Below the pieces are notes generated by a model. The model ran no database searches, had not been told where the DNA came from, and worked only from the letters and a program-made list of their open reading frames with translations. This document shows positions 12,932 through 64,000 of a DNA stretch of 64,000 nucleotides, in pieces. Source of the DNA: Owenia fusiformis (taxonomy: Eukaryota > Annelida > Polychaeta > Sabellida > Oweniidae); the NCBI GenBank assembly GCA_903813345.2, contig CAIIXF020000010.1, positions 32,270,425 through 32,334,424 on the forward strand, in the 5' to 3' direction. Position 1 is the stretch's first letter; each line of letters opens with the position of its first letter. The translations under genes were made by a program, and so were the position numbers.

Positions 12932-15900
12932 ATGGATGTACTCAAAAACAGTATCAAACAGATTAATGAACAATCCAACTTTTTCACGATCTTTGGATTC
13001 CTGGTGACAGTTCTCTACATTCCAAGAGTTGCCATCACCTTAGTAGCTCAATCAGAATTCTTCAATAAAGACTACCTTGCATGTACACCGAACAGCACTA
13101 TGGACTCGGAATACGGAAGTCTGAGGCAACGGTGTTATGTAAAATTCGCTACATCGTGGCCTCCCCATTACCATTGGTTCATGCAATTAGGGCTGACAAT
13201 CGGCGTTTTAATTTGCTTCTATTTTCCATCCTTGTGGTCCATTAAGCACAAGAAGAACATCTCTAAGAACGTCGAGCGAGGATACCTTGTTCAAACGGCG
13301 ATAAGGGCAGTTTTTGAGACTTGCTTTATCGTTGCTCAAGGTGTCTTATACGGATTTGAAGTAGACAGCAAATTCGTTTGTTCCGTAGATAATAGACGTA
13401 TACAATGCGATGTCCTTCGAGTGATTGGAAGGGTTGCCATGCTTGTGGCTATGTTCGTTATCTCCATAGTTGTGTTGGGTTTGCTCATTGCAGATTTCAT
13501 CTACGGAATCTGGACACTTAGAGCAAACGAAGGTTCCCTCTTACCAGTGCTCGAAGATACAGGTAATAAATACTTTTGATCCATATGGCATAAGATTCAC
13601 AATCAATTTAGTTGTTCACTAGTTTTTTATATCTATAATAGACGGCTAGAACCAAGCCAATGGTTTGACCAAGTCTTTACATTTTTACTATCCAAATCAA
13701 AATAATACATTTAAACAGACTTAATTTTTTGGCTTTAAACTTTCAATTCGACTCGCGATGTCAGACTGTGCTCCGCGAGCGCAGGGCATTATTTATTTTC
13801 TAATAGAGCTTAAAGACAGAATCAGAGGCCTCATCACCCGCTCGTCGCAACGCAGATTCGCAAGCGCACTGCAACGCAACGCAAGTTTGCGAATCGCAAT
13901 CAGGTTTTGTATCATCCGCTCAACGCAACACAATCGCAAATTGAAAGATGTTTCAATCGAAACTGATAGCGATAGATCTGTGTGAAAAACAAGTACATCT
14001 GTGACAAAAAGGGGGACTATCTTCCCCAAATTTTGGGGATTCAATAATCTGCCCGCCGCAGTGTCTATACCGAGACACTGCATAGGAGTTCGGGAACACC
14101 CTACTCCATATGGACAATGCATCTGCCCACAGATCTCAAAATTTTCAGAAAACAATATCCCTGGACCTCAAAATTGAGCCCTTGGCCAATGCACCATTTT
14201 GTCCAGATCTGCTCACGTGTGACTTATTTATTTCTATACTACTTATTTCTATAGAGAAAGGATGCATGTTTATTGATATTGATGAAATAAAACAACCCGT
14301 GCAACTGCATCTTGCTAGAGAATGGATTCAGCCTTGTCTCACAATCTTGAATTAAGAGGATGAGGAATTGTGTACATGTAGCACTTGATGGAACCTACCG
14401 TTTGTAGAGGACCCTGTGGAATGAATGTGGCATGAATATCACATAGTGATGATAAAATATTCAAAATCAACTATGGCATAACAAAATTAGGTAATTCATG
14501 ACCATAATAGTTTATTTTGTTCAGCCTGCATTCAACTGCATTGCATGTTAAACAAGCTAAAATAGCTTCAGAATGTTTGACGTAAATGTCGGTCCCGGGG
14601 TACCTATACATCCTTCACGAAAATAAAGATATATCAAAAGATATTACATGTTTTGTTTTCAAATCTTCAGAGTTGATAGATAATTGAATGATGTATCACT
14701 GGTAAGAAAATCGAAGAGATTGGTCTATAAAAAGCATCTGTGTAAAAAGCGTCCATTACTTATTGATCACCCCTCGTATATTGAGCAATATGTAGGGAAT
14801 GCTCAAATCTAGTAATGGTGTAATTTATTGCAAGAAATGATCAAGCATAAAGCAAACTTTGAGAAACTTGTCAATCACAAAACCTGCCTTTTTGTCAAAT
14901 TTTATAGAGTGAACAACAAAAACTGTAATTTCAAGAGCTTTGAAATCTTCAGAGAACATAAATTGCATATTCAGCTATTTGAAAGTTATTTGAAAGTTCT
15001 ACTTCAACAAAGTGCCTGGTATTTACAGAAAATTTGACCTTTTGCCCTGAAAATGAGAAAGTCCTACTTTTTGTCAAATTTATTGAGTAAACATCAAAAA
15101 CGGTAATTTCAAGAGCTTCGAAATCTTCAGAGAACATAACAGCAACTACTACAAGTTACTTGAAAGTTCTACTTCAAGAAAGTGTCTGGTATTTACAGAA
15201 AATTTGACTTTGACGTCAAAATCAGCAATTTCTCGGAAACCGGGCGGACTTGGGAAATGGCGATGATAGGTTAAATAGGCATTGTGGATATGCATAAAAT
15301 GAATGTGGATATGACTCAATCCGAATAGCAGTTTTAATTTGTGCGGCCAATGTTGACGGACGGACGGACGGACCAACGGACGGACGGACGCCTGGTCGAT
15401 CCCATAGGCTCACTGTGTGAGCCAAAACCGACGTTCTAAACTTTCCTTATATTAAGAGATCCCTTGAATGACACAGCTCTTGGTTTCAAAAGATGATCAT
15501 ATCAATTCGACGAAAGGTTGGGGTTTGCGTGAAAATGTACGTATAGTACTATCATTTGCGCATCGAAATCTTGACTGCAATTATCTCCGTCAAACAATGG
15601 GATTTTTAATGATGTTTTTATTAATGTAACAAGCCAGGTAATAGTTGCTATGACCCTCAAGAGGGTGTATTAGATGCCACATAATGGTATTTACTAATCG
15701 TTTTGATGTATAATAGGAGATGGAATTACATGGAACAGTTTGAAGTATGATTCAGTACATAATGATGAAATTAAGTATTTTAATGAACATGGCTGTGCAT
15801 GTAGGTTTTTCTGCGTCCCGTCGTCTTGCAGCTTTAAATTTTAATATTAAATTCCTAAAGAAGAATAATACAATTGATTAATGTATGTGTACTAGCTGAT

Positions 15901-18900
15901 ATTGATAAAAATGGTAATTTGAGTATACATCTGTAAAATGTATCTTCATTTCAGTAAAAGAGAAATCCCATTGTGAAAGACCCCCTGATCCAGTAGAAAA
16001 TGTCATCAGATGTGAAAGCTATACAAAACTAGAGAAGAAACTAAAGAAGGAGACTTTTGTTATCTTAAGTGGTAAGAAAATAAAGATTTTCTCTGCATCA
16101 TTTGATTTTGCTTTTACACATTTGAACTTCAAAATTACTCGAAATTAATTTAGCAAAAATAAGACTAACAGTTGAAAAATGCCATTTAACCATGCGTATG
16201 CATTCTTGATCAAAAGCATGTCCCATTCCATTGTAATTCTCAAGAGACATTTTTCAGAATGACAAGTGTAATTTCACGGGGAGGGAGACACATGTTTACA
16301 ACACATTAAAAAGTTATTCTTACACAGCTTCTAAAGACTCGAAAATTCACAATTACAACAATTACAATAAAATAATGAGTCAAGATACTTATTATCTTTA
16401 AAGACTTAATACTGCAAGGTTTTGCACGTTATTAAGCTACAACTACGAAATTCTAATATTGTGTATAAGATAGATACACCGAAAAGCAAAATGGCTCTGG
16501 ACTGATCTACGAATACCAGTTGATGGTTAAATGAAGCTAGATGATTCCTTAAATGGTAGCTTACTCAGTATTCTATGGTTTTGTCCTATTTATATGTTTG
16601 AAGTTTATCACCGGCTTTGTTCCTGAGATCAGTAAAAATGTGCACTTCAGAACGTTCAGTAAACACTAATTGATCATAATGAACCCCACCATTTATCCTG
16701 AGCTGCAGAGTAATAAGTAACACTTTACAAAATGTAAAAAATGCTTCAACGGTTTTAATTTTCAACTGATCTTGTGAGACCCATATGCCTCCCTCCCCTC
16801 CCAACATCATACCCCTTTATTTGCTGAAAACGAATGACTGTTAAAGAAGCTTTTGGTCACAGGATTTCTATTTTAAATATAGAAACAGCAACAGTGAAAG
16901 TGAATAACATAATCATAGATCAATAATACAGAATACTTAAGTTTGCTATTTCCTTACCAAAACAGGTCCCTCTGGTTCGGGGAAAACACAGCTAGCGCTG
17001 CTTTATGCCAAGAAGTTTATACATGAACATAAGGACAGCACTTGCTTTAAGTTCAACTCAAAATCCCCAGAGGATGTTCTCGTCGATGGCAAAAAGTTGA
17101 TAGATCAATGTAAACTGGACATTCATAGTCCTGACAGTGGCAAGGGTGAAGAAGACAGTATGGAGAACAAAGCCTGGAGATTACTTATCCGTATTCGCGA
17201 AGACCTTGTCAAGGACAATACAAAAACTTTGTTTATTTTTGACAGTGCCACTTTCGAAATAACTTGTATCATCAAAGAGGTGTTTATAAGTAGTAGCTCT
17301 TTCATCGTTATAATTACCTCAAATGACCCATCTCCGAAAGGTTTATACGATGATTTGAAAATCGAAATAAAAGGTTATAGTGATGCCGATGTAAACACTC
17401 TAATAATATGTCAATACAAGAAATTCAACCACGATATGGCAAAACGGCTCAACTTTTTACCACTCGGAATACACGCAGCCTGTCAATACTTTATTGAGTC
17501 TAAAGAAGCTATTCCTGAACTACCAAACCAACTAGATGACAACCCAATAAATGGCTTGTTCCAAATGTTGTACAGAAAAGCTCTCGCGACATGCAAGGAT
17601 AAAAAGGTCAGTCTACTTCTCAATATCGTCGCCTTACTAAGCCATGATCCAATACCCTTTGATGTTCTAGACTGGACGATACGAGTAAGCTATCAATCAA
17701 AGCCAGGTGATTCCGAGAAGACAAATGAGAATGGGAATATATCTTCAAAATCAGATGAAACAATAGATAAAAGGAACAAATTCCTCGATATAATAAAACG
17801 GTTCCATCTTGGGACGGTTGAAACGAATGGTTCGGAAACGAAGATGCTTCGTATGCATAGTGCAGCGGTGATGGCATTACAAAAAGCATGGGAACCTGAT
17901 GAGTTGAGACAATATTACATACAAATGCTGTTAGTCCTTGATGACCAAGCTGATAAAGACACACGAAGTTCCAAAGACTTTCTGTATTTCCTCAAGCTCA
18001 TTCCCCATGTTAAACATGCTCTGCAATATGAATACCTTATTTTAGGCAGACAATCCAAAGATGTTGGCATCCAGATATTACAAATCAGTCTCCAAGATAA
18101 GCTGTATTATATGTATACACAAACAAAGCTGATAGGATACTTCAAGGAGAACGAGTCAAAAGCTAAAGAACTATGCTATCTCCTCATCAATCAAAATCTC
18201 TCGTCTGACGATGCTGAGGCTATCGTGGATAACGAAGTACAGGATGGCATATCGGAGACAGTGCAGGGCACCAAATTGACTAATCTTGAATCTTGCGTGG
18301 ATATGGAAGGACAAAGTGGCACATCTGTTACATCGCAGGATATCGAATTGACTGAATCAAACGTGGATGATGAAGGACAGAGTGGCATGTCGGGGACAGT
18401 GCAGAGGTACGGCGAATTGACTGCAGTTGGCTCTAACATGGACAAAAAGGTTAACATAAATCAGACACAATTCATAAAGAAAAAAGCCAAGTTGATTTAC
18501 AATAAACTTGATGGACTGGAAGTTCCCGATAAGCCTTTAGACTACATTGAAGAGCTTATTTGTACAAGACGTCTCGATAAAGGCAATGTCGAACTTTTAC
18601 GAAATAAGATGAAAGAATTGAGCAACAGAAAATGTTGTAATGTCCTATGTCAAAGAAAAGATGATGAAACAGATCCTGATTATCCAAGTCAAAATTTACC
18701 CAATGATTACCTCATAGAAAGCAGGTACAAATACTTGGAAGAAAAGGGACTGGCAATCGGCTTGAAGAAAATGAGGAACATTTTTCTTGTGGAGCTCATG
18801 GCCTCTATTCTCTACACGCATGGTCGAATGTATTTTTACAAGGATGATAATAAAGAAGAAGCAAGTGTTTATGAACATGACCTGCGTCTCGCGTATGAGC

Positions 18901-19574
18901 TTTCTGCCCTTATCAAAAAGGAACAACACGAAAATATAGTCACGTTGCTTTTGGCCGAACGTAATGGCTTTTTATACAACGATGTAGAAAGCAAAGACAG
19001 TGAGAGGATAAAACGTGCGACAGATCACTACAAGAAGTTGTTGGATGAAAAGGGAGAATATTATGAGAAAGGATTGCTGAAAATAGCAACAAAGGATGAT
19101 TCGTATCACAAGACAACATGCCGTAAACAATTAGTAACTTGTTACATTTCCGCCGTCAAATGTGAAGATGACTCAAAAACGAAATTGAAGAAATATGACG
19201 AAGGTTGTAAGGAAGCCAAAGCGCTACTCAAAAATATAAAAGAAAGTGACAAACATAACAGGATAGAGGCTTTCATTAAATGCGGTGACCTTGACATGAA
19301 AGTTAGTGGAATTCATAAAAAGTATTTGGATAAAGCAATAACCAATTACGAGAAAGCTCTGAAATTAGAGAATGAACTTGTCCGGGGAGGAAGCAACAGA
19401 ATTAGAGCTCTTGAAGGTATCACAGAAGCCTTATACAAACGTAATAAAAAAGATGATTGGAAAAAAGCAATAAGCTATGCAACGAGGGCAATTGAAATTT
19501 GCACGAAGGAAAAAATAGAGAAAAATACTATCGTAAAACTCAAGCAACTACTGGAGCTTATGAATAGTCCTTGA
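12932..19574 (+). CDS. Gene B: connexin-like channel fused to STAND (NB-ARC-like) ATPase and TPR-like tail
   Basis: Three coding exons join in frame (12932-13562, 15955-16071, 16966-19574; phase 1 both times) to give about 1118 residues. A likely 5'UTR intron ends at 12910; ATG 12932 fits paralogues C and D. Residues 1-210 form four membrane spans (about 20-40, 84-102, 118-140, 166-190). Loop cysteines are C51/C68 and C150/C159. The stretches TVLYIPRVAITLVA and LYGFEVDSKFVC look like connexin TM1 and E2, and the cytoplasmic loop is only about 14 residues. Residues 211-249 are a linker. The ATPase shows Walker A GPSGSGKT (250-257), Walker B LFIFD (to D342), an ITSN sensor, FLPLG (413-417, GLPL-like) and MHS (about 546-548, MHD-like). 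Three acidic repeats (about 670-743) precede TPR-like helices to the end. I infer a pore gated by STAND oligomerisation, perhaps at the plasma membrane. Family calls are by motif reading only. Confidence 0.82.
13990..14106. repeat. Dispersed palindrome-bearing repeat, copy 1
   Basis: Inside gene B intron 1. A GGGGGACTATCTTCCCCAAA stretch is followed by CCCGCCGCAGTGTCTATACC and a small palindrome GCAGTGTCTATACCGAGACACTGC (14060-14083). The same block occurs inverted at 54209-54330, and a shorter relative is near 54600-54640. Confidence 0.6.
14107..14355 (+). pseudogene. mariner/Tc1-type transposase fragment
   Basis: The frame has DNASAHRS followed about 25 residues later by APFCPDLLTCDLF, the pattern of the second catalytic Asp and the PPYSPDL-CDF block of mariner-like transposases. 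Only this C-terminal catalytic piece remains, within gene B intron 1 and ending at a stop at 14353-14355. It is a dead fragment; no matching terminal repeats were found. Confidence 0.65.
14905..15215. repeat. Tandem ~170-bp repeat, two copies
   Basis: The block with GTAATTTCAAGAGCTTTGAA, ATCTTCAGAGAACATAA and GAAAGTTCTACTTCAA(G/C)AAAGT is repeated head to tail with about 90 percent agreement by eye. It lies in gene B intron 1; no coding is seen. Confidence 0.6.
15355..15390. repeat. (GGAC)n microsatellite
   Basis: A run of GGAC units with one interruption, in gene B intron 1, next to other repeat-derived sequence. The remainder of the intron (15391-15954) shows nothing recognisable. Confidence 0.85.
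16072..16965 (+). other. Intron 2 of gene B
   Basis: GTAAGA donor and CAAAACAG acceptor. The intron splits the first glycine codon of the Walker A motif (G at 16071, GT at 16966-16967). No gene or repeat is seen inside. Confidence 0.75.
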
Positions 19575-28825: not shown

Positions 28826-29790
28826 GTGAACAATGAATGCAACAACGGACAATGAATGGAACGACGGACAATGAATGCAACAACGGACAATGAATGCAAT
28901 AACGGACAACGAATGCAACAACGGATAATGAATGCAACAACTGAGAATGAATGCAATAATGGACAACGAATGCAATAACGGACAATGAATGCAACGACAG
29001 ACAATGAATGCAACAACGGACAACGAATGCAATAATGGACAACGAATGCAATAACGGGCAATGAATGCAACAACGGACAATGAATGCAACAACGGACAAT
29101 GAATGCAACAACGGACACTGAATGCAACAACGGACAATGAATGCAACAACGGACAATGAATGCAACAACGGACAATGAATGCAACGACAGACAATAAATG
29201 CAACAACGGACAACGAATGCAATAACGGACAACGAATGCAACAACGGATAATGAATGCAACAACTGAGAATGAATGCAATAATGGACAACGAATGCAATA
29301 ACGGACAATGAATGCAACGACAGACAATGAATGCAACAACGGACAACGAATGCAATAATGGACAACGAATGCAATAACGGGCAATGAATGCAACAACGGA
29401 CAATGAATGCAACAACGGACAATGAATGCAACAACGGACACTGAATGCAACAACGGACAATAAATGCAATAACGGACAACGAATGCAACAACGGACAATG
29501 AATGCAACAACTGAGAATGAATGCAATAATGGACAACGAATGCAATAACGGAAAATGAATGCAACGACAGACAATGAATGCAACAACGGACAATGAATGC
29601 AAGAACGGACAATGAATGCAACAACGGACACTGAATGCAATAACGGACAATGAATGCAACAACGGACAATGAATGCAGCAACGGACAATGAATGCAAAAA
29701 CGGACAATGAATGCAACAACGGACAATGAATGCAACAACGGTCAATGAATGTAATAACGGACAATGGATGCAACAACGGACACTGAATCT
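28826..29790. repeat. 19-bp minisatellite, about 50 copies
   Basis: The unit ACAATGAATGCAACAACGG is repeated head to tail with variants (GATAATG, GAGAATG, CAACGAA, AACGACAG). A higher-order period of about 320 bp is visible: the AACGGATAATG-AACTGAGAATG-AATGGACAACG series at 28916 recurs near 29237 and, in part, near 29480. Because 19 is not a multiple of 3 and the unit has no stop in the minus direction, all three minus frames stay open for over 300 codons. These frames are not evidence of a gene. Confidence 0.92.
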
Positions 29791-29841
29791 CGACTGAGTC
29801 GTGCTAACAATATAACAATCACAGTGGTTACAGTTCAGTTA

Positions 29842-32480
29842 CAGTACAAATAGTTTCCGGCAATGGATTGATAGTTACAGCGGTAGGAAAAAAGAGACTA
29901 CTACTTACACTTACTCATTTTTTAATTGGAATATTAACAATCATTGACTTTTTAACAGGATGTATTGGTATGCCTCTATATATGTACGCAAATGTTTTCA
30001 ACATGAAATATTGTCAACTCACACACAGTGTAATTTATATTACATTGCATGTATCTAGTAATATGGTTCTCTTGATAGCAATTGAAAGATATATCACTGT
30101 GGCTAGTCGATCTATGTGGATGCAGTCATTTATATGCAATGTATCGTGGGTGCTCGCCTCTGTACTTTTCAATGGAAGATATTTGCACTTCTGTTTAAAT
30201 AATCTATATTTACTTACCGTGTATATGATACTTCATTGATTTACAAACCAAAAGCTATGCTATAAACACACATTCTCTGATATTTTTACGGAGAATAGAT
30301 AACTCAAACGAGTTCACTCGACCAGTTTTATCATCTCTCTCATAGCTGTGAGAAGGTATGTATAATATGCCATAGGTTTACCTTATAATGGGGAATAAAA
30401 AATTCAAGTAATATAATTACCTCACTTACACAAATATGTCTGTGTGAAGTAAAATACAAATACAATGCGTTTTATAATATTTCTGGGGTTATGGTATGAA
30501 ATATTTGCTTTAAAAAGCAATTTAATTTTGATGTATCATGTGGATTAGTAGACGTTCTAAATGGATTCAATGAACAGACTGGCTATGTTTTAATTTAACC
30601 ATTTTGAATGTGTGTATTTTTAGTATTTTAATCCACAGTGTCCAAAAACAATGCTATATTGGTAATCGGAAAGATTCCACTTACCACGATTTCAAAAAAT
30701 TGTAAATAGATAATATTATTCTTGAATTTGGGTCATTTGTTTCAAGGAATCTGTAGGCTCGTTCAGCTGAGCTGACAAAATCATCAAGATTTACGGATGG
30801 CCCATCTGTTGACTGCTCATTGTTACTTTTAAGGAATGTTAATGGCTCTGAAACTTGTAGCCTTGCCCAATTCGGTATTTATTTACTTATCTGATCTTGA
30901 AGTATTACCACCTTGTACAATCCAATGCATCATCACTGATATTATGCTAAGTTATTCAGCGGTTCCGAGATTCCCATAAAACCTGCGCTATCTAAGGTTA
31001 TCGCGAAACCTTATTGATTGACAAGATCGCATGGACACGACGTGTGACTTCAGGCTGATTGATCAATCTAAACGTTATCTGATCTCATCGAGTGTTTCTT
31101 GAGAGTTACAACATATTATGTTATTAAATGTACATTGGAATGTAAGCAGTCATTACTACTCGTATAAATGAAATCATGCAATTCCATGTTGATTCAAAAT
31201 CAAAACTGAATTCGCGATGGAAATGCACGAAGATCTAGTCCGGCAATGTAGGGCCGTCGTTGATTGGTCAAATTTTACCAACAAAAACATTGGGTCGGTT
31301 AAGCACGTGGCTTTCTTTTGGGTACAAGGCGGTCATAATAGAAATCAAGATAAGTAAAAGAGACCGACTTGGGCAAGGCTATGAAACTTGATTTGTGGGT
31401 ATTCCAGTGGGTTGATGGGTCTTTGGCTCTGAATTCACTTCATTGGCGTACCTAATTTCAACATTTTCCTTGTCATCATTACATGTTATGGACCCGTTTT
31501 TCAAATTAACAGTATTAGGGATAAAACCATAGTTTTTTCATCTGTAATGGCATTTTCCAGTTGATGGGTTTATATATAGTATTTTCAATTCTTCATGAGG
31601 GTGTCTTGTAATGGTTTGGCTAATTACTTTACTGAATGAGGAATGTTTATCCAAACAATGGATACAAAGAAAACCTGGCCAGTTGTCCATCAGTAAATAA
31701 ATCATCATGATAAAAGTATAATTTATTATAGCATCCATTTGTTACCGTTCTGAATCCAAATGATACATAGTGGCATCCATTTTATACATATATGTTGAAG
31801 TTTACGAAATGTTTTATCTTACCTATAACAGGAATATGGTAGCTGAAACTTTCACACATTGTCTTACTTTGCATATTGAATATGTATGCAAGATTTCAAT
31901 GGATGACTGCATCCACATAGATCGACTAGCCACAGTGTATATAGCAATTTTGCACCCATTCGTTTATCAAAAATGGATGAGTTTGAAAAGAATCAAACTG
32001 GCAGCTGTTATTGCGTCTCTCGTACCGTTTGTAAACACGGTCTATATTGTGATATGTTATGCTTTATTGCCATCTGGTTTGGAAATACTAAAGATTGGGG
32101 AGTTGATGTTAGTTTGAGCATTAATAGTGGTAATTTATATAAAAAATATTAGTAGTTGTGCGAAAACAGTTAAGGGATATCGCTGCTATGAAAACACAAA
32201 ATTCTGACATTGAAAACAAAAACAAAAACAACCATGGTATCAAAAAATCAATAAGAAAGACATTTTCCTGTGTTTTATGGCGGGTTCTCTTATTTTATCG
32301 TGGCTACCTTTTGTAATAGTGGCTATATTGAAGTATGAAGAAATATCATCCTCGTTCATAACGTGGTCCGTTGTCACGACAATAGTCGGACCAAACCCGG
32401 GTGTCAACCGTCTCGATATTCAGTATTGGCACTCGACTTCGTCTCGGACCAATACGGAATTTCTCAAGCAGAATATATCC
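29842..32480 (+). pseudogene. Rhodopsin-class (class A) GPCR pseudogene split by a DNA element
   Basis: The left part (to 30094) encodes TM1 with the GN motif (SGNGLIVTAV), TM2 and TM3, ending IAIERY. The right part (from 31943) resumes with AILHPFVYQKWMSLKRIKLA and TM4. Removing the element and one 5-bp duplication makes a normal E/DRY-x-AI-HP junction. Further damage: an in-frame TGA at 32115-32117 in TM5, and single-base shifts near 32157, before TM6 (near 32276; TM6 has SWLPF) and at TM7 (near 32408), where the N-P-x-x-Y motif straddles two frames. The N-terminal start is not evident because the minisatellite abuts it. It is intronless as far as seen. The receptor subfamily is not resolved. 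Confidence 0.8.
30095..31937. mobile_element. 1.84-kb DNA element with perfect 35-bp TIRs
   Basis: The first 35 bases (CACTGTGGCTAGTCGATCTA onward) are exactly inverted at 31903-31937. TATAT flanks both ends (30090-30094, 31938-31942), and removal of one copy plus the element restores the GPCR reading frame, which fixes the boundaries. The interior has only short frames with no recognised transposase, so it is non-autonomous. CACTG ends with a 5-bp duplication do not let me name a superfamily. Confidence 0.85.
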
Positions 32481-34977: not shown

Positions 34978-37900
34978 ATGGAAGGGTGCTCTACAATTAC
35001 GGAGAAGTTAGAACCAAAGTACTTCACAGTCTTTGGATTTCTGTTGAACATTCTACTGATACCAAGATTCGTTATAACAGCAGTATCTCAAACAGAACTT
35101 TTCAATACGGACAACTTTGTTTGTACCCCAAATGTCACTCTTGATTTGGATTCAGAAAGCATAAAACAAAGATGCCATGATACATTTGCTGCAACCTCGA
35201 CATGGCCGCCACATGCCAATTGGTACACACAATTAGGTGCAACAATTAGCCTTGTGTTTTTCTTCTTCTATTTTCCATCTTGGTGGACTGTTAACCATAC
35301 GGAACAGCTGTCAGAAGGAGAAACGAAAACCATTGCTCGTGGATATCTCGCACAGACAGCCTTCAGAACAATCATAGAGTTCGGCTTCGGTGTTACACAG
35401 GTTGCCTTATATGGGTTCCAGATCCCTAGTCAGTTCGTCTGTTCAGTGAACAATGAAAGTATACCATGTGATGTTCTCAAGGTCACTGGGAAAACTGCCA
35501 TCCTTGTTGCTATGCTAATTATCTCCCTAGCCGTGGTGATTTTGCATGGGGTCGATTCAATGAAGGCAATCATAATGTTTCGAAGAGGCAACAGTCATAG
35601 ACTCTTACCAGTTCTATTGGATCATGGTTCAATCTTACCTCAGGAAGTAGATCAAGGTAAAGTCAACATTTAAATACATTATGCGAGGGATCTGAGAAAT
35701 CAAACTGAACATTTTTACTTGTCTTAACACTGTTACTTACTCTTGTAGTGCTAATCTATTAAGTTAAATAAGGTAGGAAACTTAGCATAATGTACATTTG
35801 ATTTACATGAGCAGATAAGGGCTATTTTACCAACACGACTTATCAGTCAACAACCGACAGTTGAATCCGCGAATGCTATCGTAGTCCTACGATTTCTACA
35901 AAAATTAGGTGTATTTTCGATTTCGGGGAACGAGTTCGCCGCACTCTCGTCGTAAAGTCGAATCTCTCATGTACTTATAAATCAACATCGTGTTTTATAA
36001 CTGATAGCTGCACAGGTTTACTGCGATATCTTAAAACTTATTTTTAAAAATCATTTCGTTAAAAATTAACCTTATGGTAGTTAGTGAGTTAGTGATGCTG
36101 AAGTCAAAACAAACAACACAATTCTTAATAGATGGCGACTCAATAAAATGTTACTTAGTATAAAAATGTTAATATTTTTCATAATTTTGGTGTTTAACCT
36201 AAAATATACTCGTGTTCTTGAAGTGCAAGCTCTCTCGATTAATTTGACACCAGCAGATTCAAAATCCTACCATGGTTGACTTCACAGGACGGAAATTATT
36301 AACTCATATTAAATCTGACTTGCGCCAACTTCTCGGCATCCTCCTATTACAGGGCTTCAAAATCCAGAATATATTCTTTTTTACCCCCTGCGATAAGCAA
36401 TAAGCATTTCCCTGATTAAGAACTCGCAATCTGATTGGCTGTCGCAACACTGCGACAGATATCATGTATAAGTCATTGTGTATGGAATTTATTTTGTATC
36501 AAAATTGGACATTACATGATCTATGGGAAAAATCGAACTATATGATGCGATACTCGAACTATATGATTCGAAACTCGCATCACACTATGCGAAATGCGCA
36601 TCATTATATGCGAAACTCGCATCATCGTATGCCATTTTCAATCCATGTTATACCAACAGTTAATTTTCTTGCATAACTTATTTTCATTCACACACGCACT
36701 GGTTGTATCAAGTGTCACACAAAAATCCAGAATCAATGTTGAAATGTCACACGGATTGTGTTATAAGTGGCATAGGATACTGAAAGAATTACACATGGAT
36801 CAAAGTAAATTTCGAACGAACGTGTCAATTTTACACACGCATTGAGTTCAAACTCGCATAGGATGGTTCCCGCTCGCATAGGCTGTCACAAACAAGTTGC
36901 ACTTCACACAGGGTGCGAGATTTGAAATCACGTGGCATTTGCATCCTGGTTTCTACAATACAGCGCCCTCCGTTGAAATGTTATAAAATGTAAATTTCAA
37001 ATTAAAAATATATAATTTAGCTTAGCTAGGGAGACGAACACGTGGCCATTTATTGAGAAACTACAAACTAGATCTTTTTATCTTTTTGCCGCGCTGATGT
37101 GTTATTTCGTTCAGTGCAAAAGTAACGCGAGATTTAGAAGAAAATCTCGAACATCTCTAGAAAGCAATTTATGTTACATCAAGATGTGTGATCGGTACAT
37201 CAAGGTGTGTGATCGGCACATCATGGTTTGTGAAGGGAAAAACGTTTTTGCGAGCCGCATAGGCATTTGTTCGACTTGTGTACCCTGTTCGATGTCATTT
37301 TTAAACACTGCATACACAAATACGCATGTACAAGTGTGATTTTACAAACATAGAGTGTGCAAACTCGAACAAATCGTGTATGAAATCACACGGATTGTGT
37401 ATGTATTCTGCTAAACGCTATTCTATGTGTTAGAGATATCACAGAAATATAATATGTCCAATTTTGATACAGTTTTAACACCATAATTGTGCATAATTAG
37501 ATCACGTGATTCAGAATAATCGTGCGCTTTCAAATTAGTTATAACAGGGGGAAGAAGGAGGTACGGATTCTGAATACCTGCTTAGGAGGATGACTTCTCA
37601 GTGGTTGAACATGTCATGCCTTTCCCCGACGGCATTCCATTTCCAGAATTTTCGGCATGTATGGTGACAACAGGACGGCATTGACCATTTTGTACTCGTG
37701 ACATTTTAATTGAGACACCCTGCTAGAATATCAAAAAATAGTTATCGTAAAGACCCAACTACAGTCCCGGGACTACAGTACTTTTCTGAAATAATATCTT
37801 GGTGTTATTATGCTTCTAGATCAGAGCGGGACAGCTGATAGGGGACCAGTCGACCAGGAGATAACTGAAACCATAAAAAGTAAAACTATACTCTATCAAT

Positions 37901-39761
37901 ATTAACAAGTTTCTCTTTAAAAGTAAAAAACAAACAGAGTAGGAGCAAGTATTCTGAATATGTCGGTATGCAGTATAACGAAACGCGATTTAAGTAACCA
38001 TGTAAATGTGACAATATTATCAGTGATTAGTACTACCTAAAGGGTAGGCAAAACAGTTATTAAAAACACTTAAAGATCTACATGTAGGAATACAACCGAT
38101 CATTGTGAACAAACAAATGACGTACTTTGTATCGATCAATAAAAGAGTAGAGTATACAAAAGTGATGTGCTGATTTCAGGTGTTCAACAAAAAATTGGAC
38201 TAGTATATGCCACAAACTTCTTCTATGCATACCTGAAGATTGTCATCCAACGAGGTACATGTCCAGGCTCAAGTAAGTCACTCTTTCACTATCAACGGTA
38301 ATTGATGCTCAAGCTTCTACAGGGTGTCAAATAAATACGTCCCTCCATACGCTTTATTGTAAACACAATGTTGCATAACTTTTTTTCTGCATGATTTCTT
38401 AATTGTTCTACAGTACTTTAAAACTAGGCCTAATGGAGCAAGAAGTTCCAAAAGTAAAAAAATTGGGGTAAAAATATTTAAATTGTCCCAAATAGTAAAA
38501 TGGTAACTATGGTAATTGGTAAATGGTAATTATTGTAAAAAAAACTTTAGTTTACTGGAATAAAGTATACACTTTTGGGATGTTTAGAAAATACACCTGA
38601 TAAGAATTGATATTTTCCATCAATGAATAAAATCATACAATCACAGATATGACGAATATTGACGATATTCGATTTGTAATACACTGTTTTCATTATTCGG
38701 TATTTTTGGTTCACAACTGATTACTACACATTTTTTGATCACGACACCTCAAACAATATTTTAAGCTTTTGACATAATTAAGCAATATAACCCCGAGATT
38801 ATGATTGTCTCATTCCTGGTTAGGAAGAGGAATATGAAATAGTTTGATATTCAATCGTCATTAGTCACGTCTATTACAAATATAAAACGATGGGCTAGCA
38901 TAAAATAGATTGGACGTTTGAATTGATAATCAAGATAATAATTTGATGTGTTGCGAAGTTTTTCTCTGTTGGTTGATACCTCTGATTGTTGTGATAATGT
39001 ATTTTTCAGAATTGAAGGACACGATTCAAGAATATATTGATAAAAAAGATTTGAAACGAAGAAAAATTAGAATGGCCAAAAAGCTGTATATACTAGTTCC
39101 TGATTCTGGAAAGTGTCCAAACTTGATGAGCGAAAAGGACCCCAAAATGAAGAAAACGTATTTCTTCGAGTTTAAAGCAAATCGTGCAGGTTCGTCGAGG
39201 ACATTCACAAACACAGTGTGGAAATTTAAGATTGGAGACCAGGTAGGGTATCACTCACTGTAGTTTATGAATAGTTAATTTAAAAATGACAGGGATAGTG
39301 TTAATCACGCTTTTACTATATTATCCTTGAAAACGAAAAAAACGAAAAAAAAGTTAAACAGATAAATCAATTAAAATATCTCAGAAATAGTTCATATTTA
39401 ATATAATACCGTACTCATTAAAAACCAATTTTACAAATTTTTAAATTAAACTATTTTCCAGGATTATCATGTCTTGGCTGAGTTTGCTACTATCCTTCAA
39501 ACGTTGACAGAGCTGCCGGAACAGATCATTAATGACAAGGAAAAGAGAATTGAAACGAGAAAATTTTACAAAGAGCTCAAACGTAATATTGATAACACTT
39601 TCGGAGAGTATGGTGATGTTGTTGAACTAGTAGATATTGACGATTCATCGCCAACGATATCTGAAGTCCTTAAAGAGAAAATAGATAAAGACTTTAAAGA
39701 GGCTGATCACAGTACTGTAAATCCTGTAAAATTGGCCAACATTAATGTCAAACTAATGTGA
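34978..39761 (+). CDS. Gene C: connexin-like channel fused to a STING ligand-binding domain
   Basis: Five coding exons (34978-35656, 37820-37879, 38180-38272, 39010-39242, 39462-39761) join in frame to about 454 residues; a 5'UTR acceptor is at 34957. Residues 1-226 are the four-pass module seen in genes B and D (two Cys per loop; LYGFQIPSQFVCS; CDVLKVTGKT before TM4). Residues 227-246 are a linker. From about 248 a STING domain follows: FFYAYLK, KKLYILVPDSGKCPNLMSE, NRAGSSRTFTNTVW and LAEFATILQTL. Aligned by eye to human STING, Y264, R336, R341, E362 and T365 fall on Y167, R232, R238, E260 and T263; Y163 becomes Phe, Y240 Phe and P264 Ile. No C-terminal TBK1-binding tail is seen. STING binds cyclic dinucleotides; I infer that this receptor gates or oligomerises the pore. 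A retrotransposon LTR supplies the present stop. Confidence 0.85.
36494..37471. repeat. Foldback-like element in gene C intron 1
   Basis: TGTATCAAAATTGGACATTA at about 36494 is inverted near 37451-37471. The left arm holds tandem ACTCGCATCA/TATGCGAAA words (about 36535-36640), and ATCACACGGATTGTGT-type words recur (about 36740, 37385). No coding is supported. The rest of the intron (35657-37819) shows nothing else. Confidence 0.5.
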
Positions 39762-40981
39762 GGGACGTTTTGTCCAAAATAAATAAACAAGAGAAATTTA
39801 TAAAATATTTTATATTATATCATGTATTATATCAGTCAACTTCCTTATTGATCATGTATTGATCATGTATATGTTGCACAACTACCTTAATGTTCAACTG
39901 CTATGTTGCACAACTACCTTAACACAACTGCTGTTGTTGTACAACTACCTTAAAAGATAAATCACAAAAGAGTGACAACTACCTTAACATATAAATTAGC
40001 CTACAAAAGAGTGACAACTACCTTAATCCATGAAAGTGTAGAACTACCTTAATCCATGAAAGTGTGGAACTACCTTAATTCATAAAATGTAAAACATTAC
40101 AAAAGAGTGACCAGTCTGCCAGTGCAGTACTGTTGGTGGAATGCCTAAAAATAAAAATTCACACCATAAGTTGATATGTAGCAATAAAGTAAAATGTCAT
40201 TAAAATGCAGATTAATTAATGTTTAATGTTTTAGTTGATAAAACCATATTTGTGATGGGGATTAAGTAATATATGAATGAATCTTTATTTCCCCATACAA
40301 TGCCTGAAGCATTATATAAACATCAAAACACATGAAGCATGACTTGTTCAATATGGTCAATAGGGTCAAGTTGACCTTACAAAATGTCGTATTGACCTTA
40401 CACATACTACAAATATAAATCAAATAACAAGAGTGGAATTTTACCTGACAATAAAGCTACTTGGGCTGTGAGTGTGGGCATATGGTAAAGTAGGTCAGCT
40501 AGGAACTAACCTAAAAATGTACATTTGAACCTAAGTGAAAATGTAAACAAAGGAATGAAATCCAATATGGCTGATGTTGAAATTTGCAAAATATCTTGGA
40601 GTCTTTCCTTAAACTCCTAATAACTTCAAAATTACAAACGGTATATAAAAAAATACCTATTTCAACATAGAGATTATATATTAATCTTTAAAACTAACTA
40701 TATGAATAATATACTGAGACAATATAACTTGTTTAGAAATTGGACAAAGTATGGAAAAATATTTACCACATCCAGAAGATTCAAAAGCAGGCCCAACACT
40801 AAAGTACATGATCATGTGACCTAGATCATGTGATACAGTGGTTACTAAACCTTTTTAAAGGTGGCATATCAGTACAGTCTCAGTATGTGCTGTGTTGAGA
40901 AGTAGTATACATTGGGTAGGAATAATCAGTTGTACCAACAATATTTAATATTTGAAAGTATTTATAAAAGTGCATGTCACA
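39757..40981 (-). repeat. LTR (3' LTR of the minus-strand element)
   Basis: 1225 bp, matching 47470-48690. It includes a stretch of short repeats built on ACAACTACCTTAA (about 39865-40080). On the + strand an AATAAA lies at about 39780, roughly 15-20 bp after gene C's stop, and could serve as that gene's polyadenylation signal. Confidence 0.92.
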
Positions 40982-41324: not shown

Positions 41325-44300
41325 CTACTTCTGTTGATCTAAAAGTCTCTTAGACCTTCTCAGTTGAGGCACTTCTGCAGCTGTATCCTCATTAAGGAGC
41401 TTTTTGTTTCTGATCCCTTCTGGCAATTCTTTTAAATCTTCTCTATTTACAGTTTTCCTCAGTGAGTCTTCATTCTCAATTGTATATGTGTCTCCTTTCC
41501 TTTCAATCACTTTGTATACCGAATCTTCATAATAGTCTTGTATCTTGTTTCTTCCAAGTGTTCTCCTTCTTGTTAAGACTTTTCTTCCAACATCTATTTT
41601 ATCTTCAATGATTGTTGGTTTCTTGTCATGTCTTTTTTTCCTTCTATCAGCATTTTGATTCATATTTTCTTCTGCATGAGCATAAGCTTCTTTGAACGTC
41701 TGCTTTTGTTTGGTTACCCAGTTATCTGCTTTATTTCCTTCAGAATCTTCATCGTCATTCTCTGAATCAAGCACTAAAGATAGTGGTAGTAATGCTTCTC
41801 GACCAAACATCATGTAAAACGGTGAATAACCCGTGGAGCTATGTGGGGTTATGTTGTAAGAATACACCAACTCCTTCAGGTATTCTGGCCATTTGTTCTT
41901 CGTCTTTGCTTCTAGTGACAGCAGTAGATTATGGAGGGTTCTGTTGAACCGTTCGCACTGACCATTTCCTTGGGGATGGTACGGTGTGGTTCGTGACTTC
42001 TGAACATTGTATGTTTTACACAAACAGTCTACTATCTTGCTTTCAAAATTCCTTCCCTGGTCGCTGTGTAGTCGTTTGGGAATACCATAAACTAAAAACA
42101 GATCTTTTACAAGAACTTTTGACACTGTTTCAGCTGTTTGGTCCTTAGTTTCTTTGGCAATTGTAAACTTTGTAAAGACGTCAGTTATGATCAAAACGTT
42201 TTCCATTCCGTTGGTAGCTTTTCCAAAAGTGTAAAATCAATACAGACTAGGTCTAGTGGTGATTTTGCAGATAATCGTCCCATGGGAGTAATGATTTTGT
42301 GAAAGGGCATCTTGCCAAATACACATCGATTACATGTCTTGATATATTCACATATGTCTTGTTTCATTCCTGGCCAAAAGTATCTATCACTAATCAGTTT
42401 ATCAGTTCTTTCAACACCTTGGTGTCCTGCAAAGTCATGTCCCGCTTTTAGAACTTCTTCTTTTAGAACAGTTGGAATAGCAACTTGATCATCTTTATCA
42501 TTTGACTTCACCTTCCTATACAATATGTTATCAACTAGTCGGAGTTTATGTCTTTGTTTCTCCCATTTTCTTTGATGTTTTGTCATCTTCTTCAGTATCT
42601 TAGGTGTTGGAATAATGTTATGTTTTATGATTTCTTTGATGAGACTGATATCTTGATCATCGTCTTGCAATGTGGCTAGACCTTCCTTCGTAATAGTTGG
42701 GAAGACAGTTGTTTCTGTTGGAGTTATATCACTTTCTACTGTCAGAACATTTACTTCCTTCTGGTTAATTTCTGTAGACAGATCTGGAAGGTGTGTTGTG
42801 TTTGTGATCTCTGCGATAACACTCATAGCACTGACTTCGAAGTCATCATCCTCATCTTCATCTTCTGAACTGTGTTCTAGTCTGGAGAGTGCATCTGCTG
42901 CAGTGTTCTTTATTCCTGGCTTGTACTTTATCTCAAAGTTGAAGCATGCTAAGTCAGACACCCAACGTTGCTCTAATACTGGTAGTTTCTTCTTTCGCAT
43001 GATATACGTCAATGGGTTATTGTCTGTGAAAATTGTGAATTTTGATCCAAGTAGAAAATCTCTGAACTTTTCTGTAACAGACCATTTAAGTGCTAACAGC
43101 TCCAACTTTTTGGAAGAGTAGTTGTTCATATTTTTCTCGCCTCCTCTCAGCGATCGGCTGCCATATCCAATGACTCTCATCTTTCCTTCTTGTTCTTGGA
43201 GAAGTTCACATCCGAGTCCTGATGATGACGCATCTATCTCTAATACAAAAGGCTTGTTGTAGTCTGCGAAAGCAAGGACTGGTGCTGTAGACATTTTGTC
43301 TTTAAGTGTAGCTTGTGCTTGTGTACAATCTTCTGTCCATAGCTTTTCAATATTCTCGGTCTTCTTTTTTGTTCTTTTTGTGACTTTTGTAACAAGGTTA
43401 TGTAATGGTTGGGCAGTAGCTGCATAGTTCTTCACAAAACGTCTGTGGTATCCTGCCAATCCAAGAAATCTTCTGAGATCCTTCAGGGTCTTCGGCTGTT
43501 TCCAGTTCACTATCACCTTAATCTTTTCAGGATCAGGCTTTATTCCTTCTTTCGATATCTGGTGACCAAGGTATGTTACAGTCTCTTTAAAGAAGTAACA
43601 CTTTTTCAATTCAAGCTTCAAGTTGTAGCTGTGTAAAATTGAAAAGACATTCTCTAGCCTATGAATCATTTCTTCGATGGTAGAAGAGTATACTAATAAA
43701 TCATCGAGATAGACGAGTAAGGTTTTGAAAATCTCATCTTTAAATGCCATGGTCATTAATCTTTGGTAAGTCGCAGGTGCGTTGCAGAGGCCGAATGGCA
43801 TGCGTAAGTACTCAAAAGTGCCAAAAGGTGTGGTAAAAGATGTTTTGTGAATATCCTCTTGAGCTACCTTAACCTGATGATAAGCGCTTTGAAGATCCAA
43901 TGAGCAGAACCACTTTGCATTCAGCAGTGCATCCATACTTTCCTGTATACGAGGGAGTGGGAAGACATCCTTCTTTGTGTTGTGATTCAGCTGTCTGTAA
44001 TCCACGCATAGTCTAAGTGATTTATTTTTCTTTCTGACGAGAACAATAGGGCTAGCGAAGTTTCTACTACTTGGGCGAATGATCTTTTTCTGTATTAGTG
44101 TGTCAATACGTCTCGAAGTTCTTGAAAAACTGCAGGAGGCACTCTACGGAAAGGTTCATTCACAGCAAAATCGTCTGGTGTAGGTATTTTGTGTTCAATT
44201 GCATCAGTATACCCCAAATCATTTTCGTCTGTTCCAAAGATTTTGTGGTATTTGTAAAATAACTTTGCAGTCTTCTTGCGTTCATCTTCTGTTCCAGGGA

Positions 44301-44334
44301 AATATTCTAACAGTCTGTTTACTTCTTGGATAAC
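41325..44334 (-). pseudogene. Pol polyprotein: reverse transcriptase, RNase H, integrase; frame breaks
   Basis: Read on the minus strand, the region just after the gag-protease stop (from 44334) has a pol-like leader, then a break near 44100. The RT frame (about 44100-42191) has FSLDLQSAYHQV, LRMPFGLCNAPATYQ and the catalytic YLDD, then RNase H (LEIDASSSGLG, FTDNNPLTYI) and the integrase H-x3-H...C-x2-C zinc site. A one-base break near 42215 moves the integrase core to a second frame (stop near 41325), with the DDE residues in IITD, HSDQGRNFE and GQCERFNRT. A basic C-terminal domain follows. Two frame breaks make this copy defective unless they are errors. Confidence 0.88.
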
Positions 44335-44337
44335 ATG

Positions 44338-46326
44338 CTATGGGACTGTTGGCTCTTCTTCATCATTCTCAATTGGTTTTGATTTCAAATTCTCGTTTGT
44401 AGCTATTTTTACTGTATTGTCCTGTATGCTGTATGAAACTTTACAACAGTTTACTGTTGCAGAATGTAATTGTCCTATTGGAGTTCTTTTGGTAAGTATT
44501 ACACTCGTTTCCGAAGCATTTAAGACACGTATTGTAGCACTTCCAGATGTTGCATCTATGTATCCATTCATAACTTGGACATTTCCAGGTAAGACTCTAT
44601 CCAATGGTTCGACTAAACCTTGTCCTCTAAAAGAACCCGTAGAAACATCTACATCAACAGTTGTTGAGGCTGGGATAAACACCTGTCCTTTCACACGTAT
44701 AAGATGTGTTCTTTCTTCTGTGTCATTTGGTGTGGATTGAAACGTTGGCAAATGTTTCAAGACATTCATTCCTATTAACAGATCTGGATATGATCCGGAT
44801 TCTTCGTGTACTAGAATTCCACAGTCCTTTATGGTGATATCTTGTATTATTATATCTTCTATGAGGAGACCTTTGTATGGTATTTTGAGATTATTAGCTG
44901 CTTTGAGGTCAAGAAGTTGAAATGGTTGTAGTTCTTTGACAAATTGATTTTCATAAAATTCCTTTGACATAAGCATAACACTGCTCCCAGAGTCCATTAT
45001 TCCTGTAGTTTCTATATCTCCAATTTTGATATCCCATTTCTGCGTTTCACCAACAATTTTCTCCATGTTTGGATGACAAGATATACAAGTTGTATCTGTT
45101 GTCAGATTGACATTTGTTATGACTTCATTTGGTTTGCTATCTGAGTTTTTAGGGTCATTTACTTGTACACTGTGATTATCATATCGTTCATTGCTGTTGT
45201 AGTAGTTTGATGGTCTTCTGGAGTAATTGTTTCCTCTTGATCTTCCTCTTCCTCGGTAGTTGTTTTGACCTCTGTTGAAACGGTTGTTGAATTGTCCTCT
45301 GCCATAACTGTTGAAATTCTGTTGTGGGTTGTTTTTCATTTCCTTTATTTCATTCAGTTCATTCTCCATTTTGTTTTGTTTTTCTAGTAAGGTCCTCATC
45401 ATACTGTGTAGTGTGTTGTTACTATCTACTGTGTTTGCTGTAGTCTTTTTTGTTTCCATGGAGTCACTCTGCTTTTCGTTTAGTTCGTATTGAAAGGCTG
45501 TTTCTCTCAATGTGTGGAATGTAGTTGAACTGTTATAGTCCGAGATTCCTCTTAATTCCCATCTCATTTTAGGACAGCATACACCTTCTATTAGTTGCTC
45601 TTTTAACAGCTTGTCTTCATCAACCTTTTCATCTTGATTTTGTTTCACAATATCCATTAACTTCATAAAGGCTTGGGTATATTGAGCTATTGTCTCATTT
45701 GGATGCTGCTTTCTAGTATAGAATTCTGTCATTGATTTATGAGAAGACTTGTGTATTCCGAAAACTCGTTGTAGTGTTTTAAATATCTCAGTAGGTGTTG
45801 GGTTTGTCAGGTATCTCGCTTCTCTTCTAGGATTTGGACCTAGATGATATACAACAAAGTCTTCTTTCTCCGAGTTGTTTTTCAAATCTCGTATGGCCAT
45901 TGTAGCATCCTCAATCCAGTCATAGATATCCTCATCCTTGTTTCCCATAAATTTACTCAATTTTGGTTTCTTCGATATATACTGCGTATTCTTTGAACTA
46001 GTTTCTGGTGTACTACTAGCGCTTTGAGTGTCAGCTAAAGTTTTTCTATCTGGTATTTCTTCATCCAAATACTTCTTTTTGAGGATCGCCAACTCTTTTT
46101 CCATATTTATCATTCTGAGAAGTTCTCTTCTTTTTACTCTCTCTTCTTTATCGAGGGTTTCTGCCATATCATCTATCGCTCGTTCAGCTTCAGATTTATG
46201 ATCCTTTGTAGTTGTTTTTTTCTTTGTCGGGTCCTCTTGGCGCAATGTTTCAGCCATTTCATCTATTATACGTTCTGCTCCAGCTTTAATATCGCTTGGT
46301 GTTACTCCATCTTGTGCTTCAGCCAT
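44338..46326 (-). CDS. Gag-protease polyprotein of the LTR retrotransposon
   Basis: About 662 residues from ATG 46326. The N-terminal 120 residues are charged and helical, with two similar DIKAGAERIIDEMAETL-type stretches. The middle is a Gag capsid-like region (YDWIEDATMAIRDLK, FYTRKQHPNETIAQYTQAF). An RG-rich segment (NRGQNNYRGRGRSRG) replaces the usual CCHC zinc knuckle as the likely nucleic-acid-binding part. A retropepsin-type aspartic protease motif (IMDSGSS) is near residue 444. The frame ends at TAG 44338-44340 and continues open in the same frame into pol, so stop readthrough or a nonsense change are both possible. Confidence 0.88.
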   Translation of the reverse strand: MAEAQDGVTPSDIKAGAERIIDEMAETLRQEDPTKKKTTTKDHKSEAERAIDDMAETLDKEERVKRRELLRMINMEKELAILKKKYLDEEIPDRKTLADTQSASSTPETSSKNTQYISKKPKLSKFMGNKDEDIYDWIEDATMAIRDLKNNSEKEDFVVYHLGPNPRREARYLTNPTPTEIFKTLQRVFGIHKSSHKSMTEFYTRKQHPNETIAQYTQAFMKLMDIVKQNQDEKVDEDKLLKEQLIEGVCCPKMRWELRGISDYNSSTTFHTLRETAFQYELNEKQSDSMETKKTTANTVDSNNTLHSMMRTLLEKQNKMENELNEIKEMKNNPQQNFNSYGRGQFNNRFNRGQNNYRGRGRSRGNNYSRRPSNYYNSNERYDNHSVQVNDPKNSDSKPNEVITNVNLTTDTTCISCHPNMEKIVGETQKWDIKIGDIETTGIMDSGSSVMLMSKEFYENQFVKELQPFQLLDLKAANNLKIPYKGLLIEDIIIQDITIKDCGILVHEESGSYPDLLIGMNVLKHLPTFQSTPNDTEERTHLIRVKGQVFIPASTTVDVDVSTGSFRGQGLVEPLDRVLPGNVQVMNGYIDATSGSATIRVLNASETSVILTKRTPIGQLHSATVNCCKVSYSIQDNTVKIATNENLKSKPIENDEEEPTVP

Positions 46327-62365: not shown

Positions 62366-64000
62366 ATGGAATGTTTGACGACCATTACTGATAAGTTACA
62401 ACCAAATTTCTTCTCGGTCTGTGGATTTCTTCTAAACATTTTGATCATTCCACGAATCGGGATCACGGTTGTTGCTCACACTCTACTTTTCAACGAGGGG
62501 AACTTTCTTTGCTTCTTGAACATCACATCTGGTCAGTACTCAGACGACGCCCAAACAAACTTCAACCAACGCTGTCATAATGCATTTGCTTCAAAATGGC
62601 CGCCATATGTTCATTGGTACACACAATTAGTGTTGACAATTTTCATTTTGAGTTGCTTCTATTTTCCATGTTGGTGGACTGTAGAGCATAAAAAGCCATT
62701 AGACAAACTGCAAGCAAATCGTGACAAGTATAATAGATCAATAGGAAAAGTTCCTTGGATATATCTTGCCCAGACCGCTGCACGAACAGCTGTTGAATTT
62801 ATCTTTACCGTTTCCCAGGTTGCCTTATATGGCTTCCAGATCCCAAGTAGATATGTTTGTTCAGTTGACAATGACACAATACCATGTGATAATCTCAAGG
62901 TAACTGGAAAAGTTGGCCTTTTTGTTGCTATGTTTCTCCTGTCTCTACTCGTGATAGGCTTGCTGATTGCTGATTTATACAGAACAATTCAAAAGTTTTT
63001 GAAAGGCAGTGAACTATCGCTCTTACCAGTGCTTTGTAACGAAGGTAAGAAATTATGTATTATGCAGAAGCATTCAAATTCTCGTAGTTTCATTTCCCTT
63101 TCTAGTATTTATAATATTGTAAGGTTGTATCATGATTTCTGTATTTTCTAAATGTTATTATATATATTGATCGTTCCTCTATTGCAAATCAGCCTCATTA
63201 TTTATTCTACCAAAAGTAAGCTTAATTATTCATTTTGTTTCACTAAAAAAAATAATATAAAAACATATACAAATATTTCTCAAATTAAGTTGTTACCTGA
63301 TTCAAACGATGTGTAATTTTTTCAGATTTTTTCGTAAACAGGTTTAAAAGAAAACAATGTTGAATATAGTTTACCAAATCATAATAGTACCAATCCAAAT
63401 GTTATAGTAATTAATAAATAATCTGACTTATTGGTTCTTTAAGTGGATCATTATAAAACGATTTGTAATATTACTTCAGGCCAAAAATACAGCCCTATAT
63501 CCACAAGCGCACCTGAACCTGTAGCAGATTTCTTCAAATGTGAAAACTACACAAAGTTGGAAAAGAAACTAGGTGATCAAGACTTGGTTGTCTTAACAGG
63601 TGAGTGAACAAGAAAATGACAATTCTAAAGAGTATAAAACCAGATTAAACAAAATAAGTTTTTTCATGTTTATATACATGTACATGTAATTGAAATTATA
63701 ATTACCACAATCTGACATATGGAGAGCATTATAATTACCATATATCCCAGATGAACATTTTGCTTAATACAAAGGAAATTTTGCAAGATAGACAACTCTT
63801 AACAATCGTCTGGGATGAAACAATAACTTTTTAATTTTGACAAAGATACCATATTTTAACATATCTTGTTTATATTAAAGGGACAATGACGGATATAGCT
63901 ATGAGGAAAGCTTTCTGAATTACATTACAGTCGTACTACAATATTTTTGCTCAAAACAATCTATTCGATACCTGTTATCTGAAATGCCTAAAAGTTCAGG
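62366..64000 (+). CDS. Gene D: connexin-like channel plus STAND linker exon, continuing past the window
   Basis: Exon 1 coding runs from ATG 62366 to 63044 (226 codons plus one base); a 5'UTR acceptor is at 62295. It encodes four membrane spans with the loop-cysteine plan of genes B and C (LCFLNIT...QRC in E1; YVCSVDNDTIPC in E2; NLKVTGK before TM4), but a longer cytoplasmic loop of about 30 residues. Exon 2 (63480-63599, phase 1 to phase 1) encodes the same linker as gene B (C-E-N-Y-T-K-L-E-K-K-L, ending VVLTG), which in gene B leads directly into Walker A. So the next exon, beyond the window, is expected to be a STAND ATPase; this is inferred. The window's last bases, TTCAG|G, could be its acceptor, but cannot be judged. 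ATG 62366 is chosen over the in-frame GTG 62348 by alignment to genes B and C. Confidence 0.82.

Follow-up and report, generated by a model that had tools for sequence, protein, structure and literature searches.

A connexin-type module joined to a STING ligand-binding domain in the annelid Owenia fusiformis: a candidate cyclic-dinucleotide-gated channel

Can a single animal gene join a cyclic-dinucleotide sensor directly to a membrane pore? The question is raised by a gene at positions 34978 to 39761 of a 64-kb stretch of DNA from the polychaete annelid Owenia fusiformis (assembly GCA_903813345.2, contig CAIIXF020000010.1, positions 32,270,425 to 32,334,424 of the forward strand; hereafter the window). 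A sequence-only reading of this stretch had proposed that five exons join a connexin-like module to the ligand-binding domain of the cyclic-dinucleotide receptor STING. On the sequence evidence, the domain identities and the fusion are well supported; from its architecture we infer that cyclic dinucleotides would open a large pore without a TBK1 step. The elements of the gene are as follows.

34978..35656, + strand: exon 1, connexin-like module, residues 1-226, with an N-terminal helix and four transmembrane (TM) helices
37820..37879, + strand: exon 2, linker with phase-1 boundaries on either side; placed by the join, with identical residues in a deposited Owenia protein (P0001) and the same exon in a second genomic copy (L024)
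38180..38272, + strand: exon 3, first part of the STING domain with helix alpha1 (GLVYATNFFYAYLKIVIQ); placed by the join and aligned to solved STING chains
39010..39242, + strand: exon 4, STING ligand-binding domain with KKLYILVP and NRAGSSRTFTN; found by the PF15009 genome scan (31.4 bits, above cut-off)
39462..39761, + strand: exon 5, remaining STING ligand-binding domain (EFATILQTL) up to the stop codon; placed by the join and the profile
39778..39787, + strand: two overlapping AATAAA strings (polyadenylation-signal type) directly 3' of the stop, starting at 39778 and 39782

The five exons (679 + 60 + 93 + 233 + 300 bases) do have the matching phases that had been claimed for them: all introns are GT..AG, with phases 1, 1, 1 and 0, and the single resulting frame encodes 454 residues followed by a stop. 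The first methionine after exon 1 is residue 299, past helix alpha1, so that the STING domain needs an upstream exon. Strings of the AATAAA or ATTAAA type also lie between exons 1 and 2, at 36142, 36308 and 37001, and such strings prove little for this gene, as they are frequent in DNA so rich in A+T.

The sequence-only reading had called for a profile search and for a structure prediction of the joined protein, and both came out in favour of the fusion. Two Pfam families exceed their curated cut-offs, STING_LBD with 71.5 bits over residues 256-425 (E 7.6e-20; cut-off 27) and Connexin (PF00029) with 48.6 bits over residues 115-193 (E 1.1e-12; cut-off 31.3), while the only other family listed lies far under its cut-off; defence-system profiles gave no match to the fusion protein. 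Both folds appear in the predicted chain. By sequence alone, the top-scoring solved structures are a STING chain (8ydn, E 6.3e-14), oyster TIR-STING (E 1.1e-07) and connexin 36 (E 2.1e-07). The fusion also recurs, both at L024 and among deposited Owenia proteins: P0001 (456 amino acids), which presumably comes from another assembly of Owenia fusiformis, agrees with the joined window protein at every position up to residue 453 and ends in KSH instead of M, and Pfam assigns both Connexin and STING domains to P0001 and P0002, and STING only to P0003 (317 amino acids). The database names of these matches, "unnamed protein product" and "Connexin cysteine-rich domain-containing", read as automatic.

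The membrane module was characterized further through exon 1 and its paralogues. Exon 1 by itself scores 51.6 bits against the Connexin profile (cut-off 31.3), and the match in the fusion protein spans TM3, the second extracellular loop (E2) and TM4 only, which is the second half of the module; the identity of the first half comes from the fold model and from a paralogue whose match extends over positions 23-222 of the 225 in the profile. The four-pass arrangement put forward earlier agrees with the predicted fold, which comprises an N-terminal helix, four TM helices, a helix in the first extracellular loop (E1) and a beta hairpin in E2, and connexins account for 50 of the 50 structural matches listed for this model. 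From 18 candidates, a PF00029 scan of the 498-Mb Owenia assembly gave 13 matching loci at E up to 1, all above the cut-off, this and the other family counts being lower bounds. In the fusion module, E1 carries Cys49 and Cys66 with a glycosylation sequon at Asn52, and E2 carries Cys155 and Cys164, giving the spacings C-x16-C and C-x8-C; two cysteines per loop, where canonical connexins have three, and the E1 sequon are features of all 13 connexin-profile exons. The designation canonical connexin gap-junction protein was rejected because each loop is one cysteine short of the canonical three. On these sequence features, connexin-type module is the suitable name, connexin 23 (Cx23) likewise having four loop cysteines. 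A 2022 survey states, in the passages concerned, that connexins arose within chordates and that its non-chordate search returned none but one unconfirmed sea-urchin transcript (PMC8769644). The deposited match described here departs from a chordate-only distribution, Owenia fusiformis belonging to Annelida.

The C-terminal part contains the three STING blocks that had been named, KKLYILVP (residues 301-308), NRAGSSRTFTN (335-345) and EFATILQTL (362-370), and is predicted to fold as a STING ligand-binding domain. Alignment with solved STINGs indicates that the cyclic-dinucleotide contact residues Tyr264, Arg336, Arg341, Asn345, Glu362, Thr365 and Thr369 are kept; in the correspondence with human STING residues that we assume for this pocket, human Tyr240 is Phe343 in the fusion protein. 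Stacking aromatics and an arginine equivalent to human R238 are described in a passage of PMC9980059 as common to all known STINGs. STING's own N-terminal four-helix membrane domain is not present, the connexin module standing in its place. No TBK1/IRF3-recruiting motif was seen by eye in residues 440-454, where the chain stops, judged against what we take to be the motifs of that tail; many invertebrate STINGs have no such C-terminal tail. A crude hydropathy scan of the open frames preceding nine other STING loci of the genome, covering only 469 bases at L038, detected no four-helix exon. The upstream enzyme family is represented in the genome by 32 Mab-21 matches, all above cut-off, part of which may be Mab21-like proteins that produce no signal.

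The second copy, L024, lies near 36.57 Mb of the contig that holds the window, on the minus strand. All five exons are found there by blastn at 88.6-95.3% identity (the exon 5 match covers 228 of 300 bases), the splice sites are identical to those of the window gene, and the joined frame of 442 amino acids is free of stops; both copies thus have an intact frame, and both retain the pocket residues. Between the copies, Nei-Gojobori estimates for the connexin part give a synonymous divergence (dS) of 0.089 and a non-synonymous divergence (dN) of 0.027, a ratio of 0.31, and the linker shows 4 non-synonymous and 0 synonymous changes. The deposited P0002, a model of this copy, has 405 amino acids and is 85% identical over 83%.

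The fusion gene is a member of a family of connexin-plus-cytosolic-module genes, a point which the sequence-only reading overlooked along with the unexpected presence of connexins in an annelid. Three of the 13 loci lie in the window, namely the fusion gene and two others, here called gene A and gene C.

12932..13562, + strand: gene A exon 1, connexin-like module (Pfam Connexin, 49.3 bits)
15955..16071, + strand: gene A exon 2, linker to the NTPase, placed by the join
16966..19574, + strand: gene A exon 3, 870-residue STAND-like NTPase with P-loop GPSGSGKT, from nSTAND3 and the join; joined protein of 1118 amino acids
62366..63044, + strand: gene C exon 1, connexin-like module (Pfam Connexin, 43.4 bits)
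63480..63599, + strand: gene C exon 2, linker, from the join built on L029

Exon 3 of gene C, encoding its NTPase, starts past the window end, at position 65132 by extrapolation, and the joined protein has 1111 amino acids. A phase-1 donor is readable at the end of all 13 connexin exons (about nine bases further on in L025 and L028), the joins being confirmed only for the loci where they were built. STING follows the connexin exon at two of the 13 loci (the window gene and L024), and a long P-loop exon follows at seven (gene A, gene C/L029, L022, L025, L028, L030 and L031); four of these seven were joined into open frames of 1118, 1111, 1065 and 1041 amino acids, and for the other three the P-loop exon is known only to lie 3' of the connexin exon on its strand. 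A Death-like exon, unjoined, follows at L026 (23.7 bits, above the cut-off of 22.6) and at L023 (17.3 bits, under it). L032 gave no conclusive downstream partner, a weak RHIM-like stretch in an open frame near it scoring 16.0 bits against a cut-off of 20, and for L027 neither the long exon of gene A nor that of L025 found a match within about 9 kb. The connexin-type exons of L023, L026 and L032 form a diverged set.

The name STAND-like for the P-loop proteins is provisional, drawn from nSTAND3 scores with the linker included, of which one exceeds the cut-off of 27.2 (gene A, 31.6) and three fall just under it (L031, 26.7; gene C, 26.0; L025, 24.2), and from a P-loop recognized by eye; the queries were 330-residue pieces for three genes, including gene A, and an 833-residue piece for L031. 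Searched without the linker, none of the four long NTPase exons matched a STAND family, even with E allowed up to 1. Defence-system profiles gave weak matches for two of these four exons only, TPR-like matches in the C-terminal region of gene A are weak and under cut-off, and sequence comparison with solved structures gave nothing convincing for the joined L031 NTPase (best E 0.028). The P-loop of L025 reads GPSGSEKT in place of GPSGSGKT, and this STAND-like copy is possibly inactive.

We propose, as a reasonably probable reading, that the product of the fusion gene is a single receptor-channel of the membrane, a hemichannel of connexin type that stays undocked and is gated by cyclic dinucleotides. 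Its N-terminal part would form the connexin-type channel subunit, its two ends being cytosolic, and the C-terminal cytosolic STING domain would substitute for the connexin tail, with no need for a STING membrane domain. A cGAS-like enzyme would produce the cyclic dinucleotide, around which STING domains would pair and then stack side by side; the resulting pull through the linker (about residues 204-245) would assemble or open a hexameric hemichannel corresponding to three STING pairs. Docking into gap junctions would be prevented by the reduced cysteine set, with two rather than three in each loop, and by an N-glycan next to the first cysteine of E1, so that ions or small molecules, for instance ATP, would be lost across one membrane, leading to alarm or cell death. 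We infer both the opening of a pore, from the shared architecture, and the lack of docking. A broader proposition, to which we give about even weight, is that the connexin-type hemichannel serves as a plug-in output for innate sensing in Owenia, its phase-1 exon having been shuffled onto STING, STAND-like NTPases and perhaps Death-domain proteins to produce sensor-gated pores.

Several observations weigh against the proposed channel. The full-length model has a predicted template-modelling score (pTM) of 0.49, which makes the relative placing of the two domains unreliable, and the training of AlphaFold2 included solved structures, connexins among them. In the STING part, dS is 0.130 and dN 0.121 between the two copies, a Nei-Gojobori ratio of 0.93 that suits fast adaptation and equally a loss of constraint, and of the changed positions two, 342 and 344, fall between pocket residues. 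P0002 starts in a different frame and has no TM1, though the L024 DNA holds the whole exon intact. A sequon in E2 occurs in only three of the 13 exons and is missing from L024, and the argument from sequons is itself weak, seven innexins with such sites forming gap junctions according to a passage in PMC8769644.

An alternative, which we regard as unlikely, holds that the connexin part is a mere membrane anchor or scaffold fixing subunit number and location, with adaptors signalling and no pore. The four helices of canonical STING mainly anchor and oligomerise, which fits this explanation, as does a crude scan that finds no membrane part in the sister STING genes L039 (the gene of P0003) and L041. 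Just 5' of the STING alpha1 exon, L039 and L041 also carry NVQVG motifs (HNVQVGSGTNIINN and DNVQVGNRNVQIII) that look RHIM-like by eye and hint at adaptor signalling in the clade, but the RHIM profile has no match to them. Against an anchor, the predicted module retains the N-terminal helix of connexins along with the helix in E1 and the hairpin in E2, which a plain anchor would not need, and the ratio of 0.31 against 0.93 shows the connexin module to be more constrained than the STING part. The same channel exon with its phase-1 end precedes at least two unrelated sensor types, and the gated pore is preferred over the anchor since one channel exon ahead of unrelated sensors, and thus of different cytosolic parts, looks like a shared immune effector.

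Still less probable is a gap-junction-like channel that passes cyclic dinucleotides to neighbouring cells and is gated by their binding. Passage of cGAMP through mammalian gap junctions is established, and this lends the idea some weight. The relevant passages on Cx23 cut both ways, in that gap-junction formation is reported for the zebrafish protein, which has four loop cysteines, whereas mouse Cx23 forms hemichannels and no gap junctions (PMC10598745). Statements in both directions are likewise found within PMC8769644, where the seven innexins with predicted N-glycosylation sites are assigned to functional gap junctions and N-glycosylation is said to stop chordate innexin homologues from forming them; the E1 sequon of all 13 paralogues argues for the undocked state. 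A third explanation, that ligand sensing has been lost from the STING part, both genes being recent duplicates that are losing function or else decoys, draws on the ratio of 0.93 and on the lid-region changes at residues 342 and 344, and is rendered very improbable by the intact frame and pocket residues of both copies. Least credible of all is a merger by gene prediction of two neighbours, a connexin-like gene and a STING gene, with no fusion protein: an in-frame stop five codons beyond the exon 1 donor would permit an unspliced short form and poly-A-type strings do lie between exons 1 and 2, but the identical join occurs in two loci and in deposited annotation, translation of a complete STING domain has no start codon available in exons 2-5, and all 13 connexin exons end in a readable phase-1 donor.

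Other features of the window include an open frame with a SIR2 domain at 24178-24960 on the minus strand (32.9 bits, cut-off 24), a domain that is also used in immune effectors. A repetitive stretch at 28763-29838 (minus strand) has three frames open simultaneously, and two plus-strand frames at 29808-30239 and 31764-32117 resemble, by eye, parts of a rhodopsin-type receptor. The minus strand immediately past the fusion gene holds three long frames, at 41325-46335, that appear by eye to be the integrase, reverse transcriptase/RNase H and gag of a long terminal repeat (LTR) retroelement.

If the proposed mechanism is true, the fusion would represent a direct second-messenger-to-pore receptor in animal immunity, with no kinase or transcription steps, and if the plug-in proposition is true as well, a sensor-gated pore family would exist in an animal group held to be without connexins. 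The 13 annelid loci above the profile cut-off also bear on connexin origin, in contrast to the chordate-only picture presented in PMC8769644; connexins may be older or may have moved between lineages. No title or abstract among the open-licence papers listed in literature searches concerned a connexin-STING or connexin-STAND protein; one listed paper, PMC6543705, contains both the words Owenia and connexin. The words connexin, annelid and Owenia are absent from the main texts of PMC10732462 and PMC12424679. Protein-database searches for relatives returned only the Owenia proteins P0001, P0002 and P0003; these searches required shared five-residue words and lengths of about 250-800 or about 124-400 amino acids, which put STAND fusions of about 1,000 amino acids beyond reach, and they cannot show that other animals are without such genes, since one search, which returned P0002 alone, missed even known chordate connexins.

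Among known systems, canonical metazoan STING, such as that of humans, resembles the fusion in its ligand-binding domain, by profile and predicted fold, and in the pocket residues kept; it differs in having its own membrane domain, replaced here by the connexin module, and a TBK1/IRF3 tail, whereas the fusion chain stops about 15 residues past the domain with no tail motif seen by eye. Oyster and bacterial TIR-STING, bacterial TM-STING and fungal PNP-STING likewise join STING to another module, and the oyster protein is among the best solved-structure matches to the fusion. Passages in PMC10732462 catalogue TM-STING, TIR-STING and further fusions and describe the bacterial TM-STINGs as having two helices, and PNP-STING is treated in PMC12424679. 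Unlike in these proteins, the module fused in Owenia is a connexin-type channel. Connexin 23 (GJE1) shares with it the four rather than six extracellular cysteines and has no sensor domain; the spacings C-x16-C and C-x8-C belong to the Owenia module and set it apart. Alternative connexin motifs of C-x(10)-C and C-x(12,13)-C are given in a section of PMC6858305. Innexins and pannexins are also four-pass channel proteins, many with extracellular glycosylation sites, as noted in part of PMC8769644. They constitute a separate protein family, connexins making up all 50 structural matches listed for the Owenia module. Bacterial CBASS and type III CRISPR systems have membrane effectors gated by cyclic oligonucleotides, membrane proteins set off directly by a nucleotide second messenger, as is proposed for the fusion; their membrane parts are unrelated to the connexin module, and the likeness is one of working principle only, the fusion not being a member of those families.

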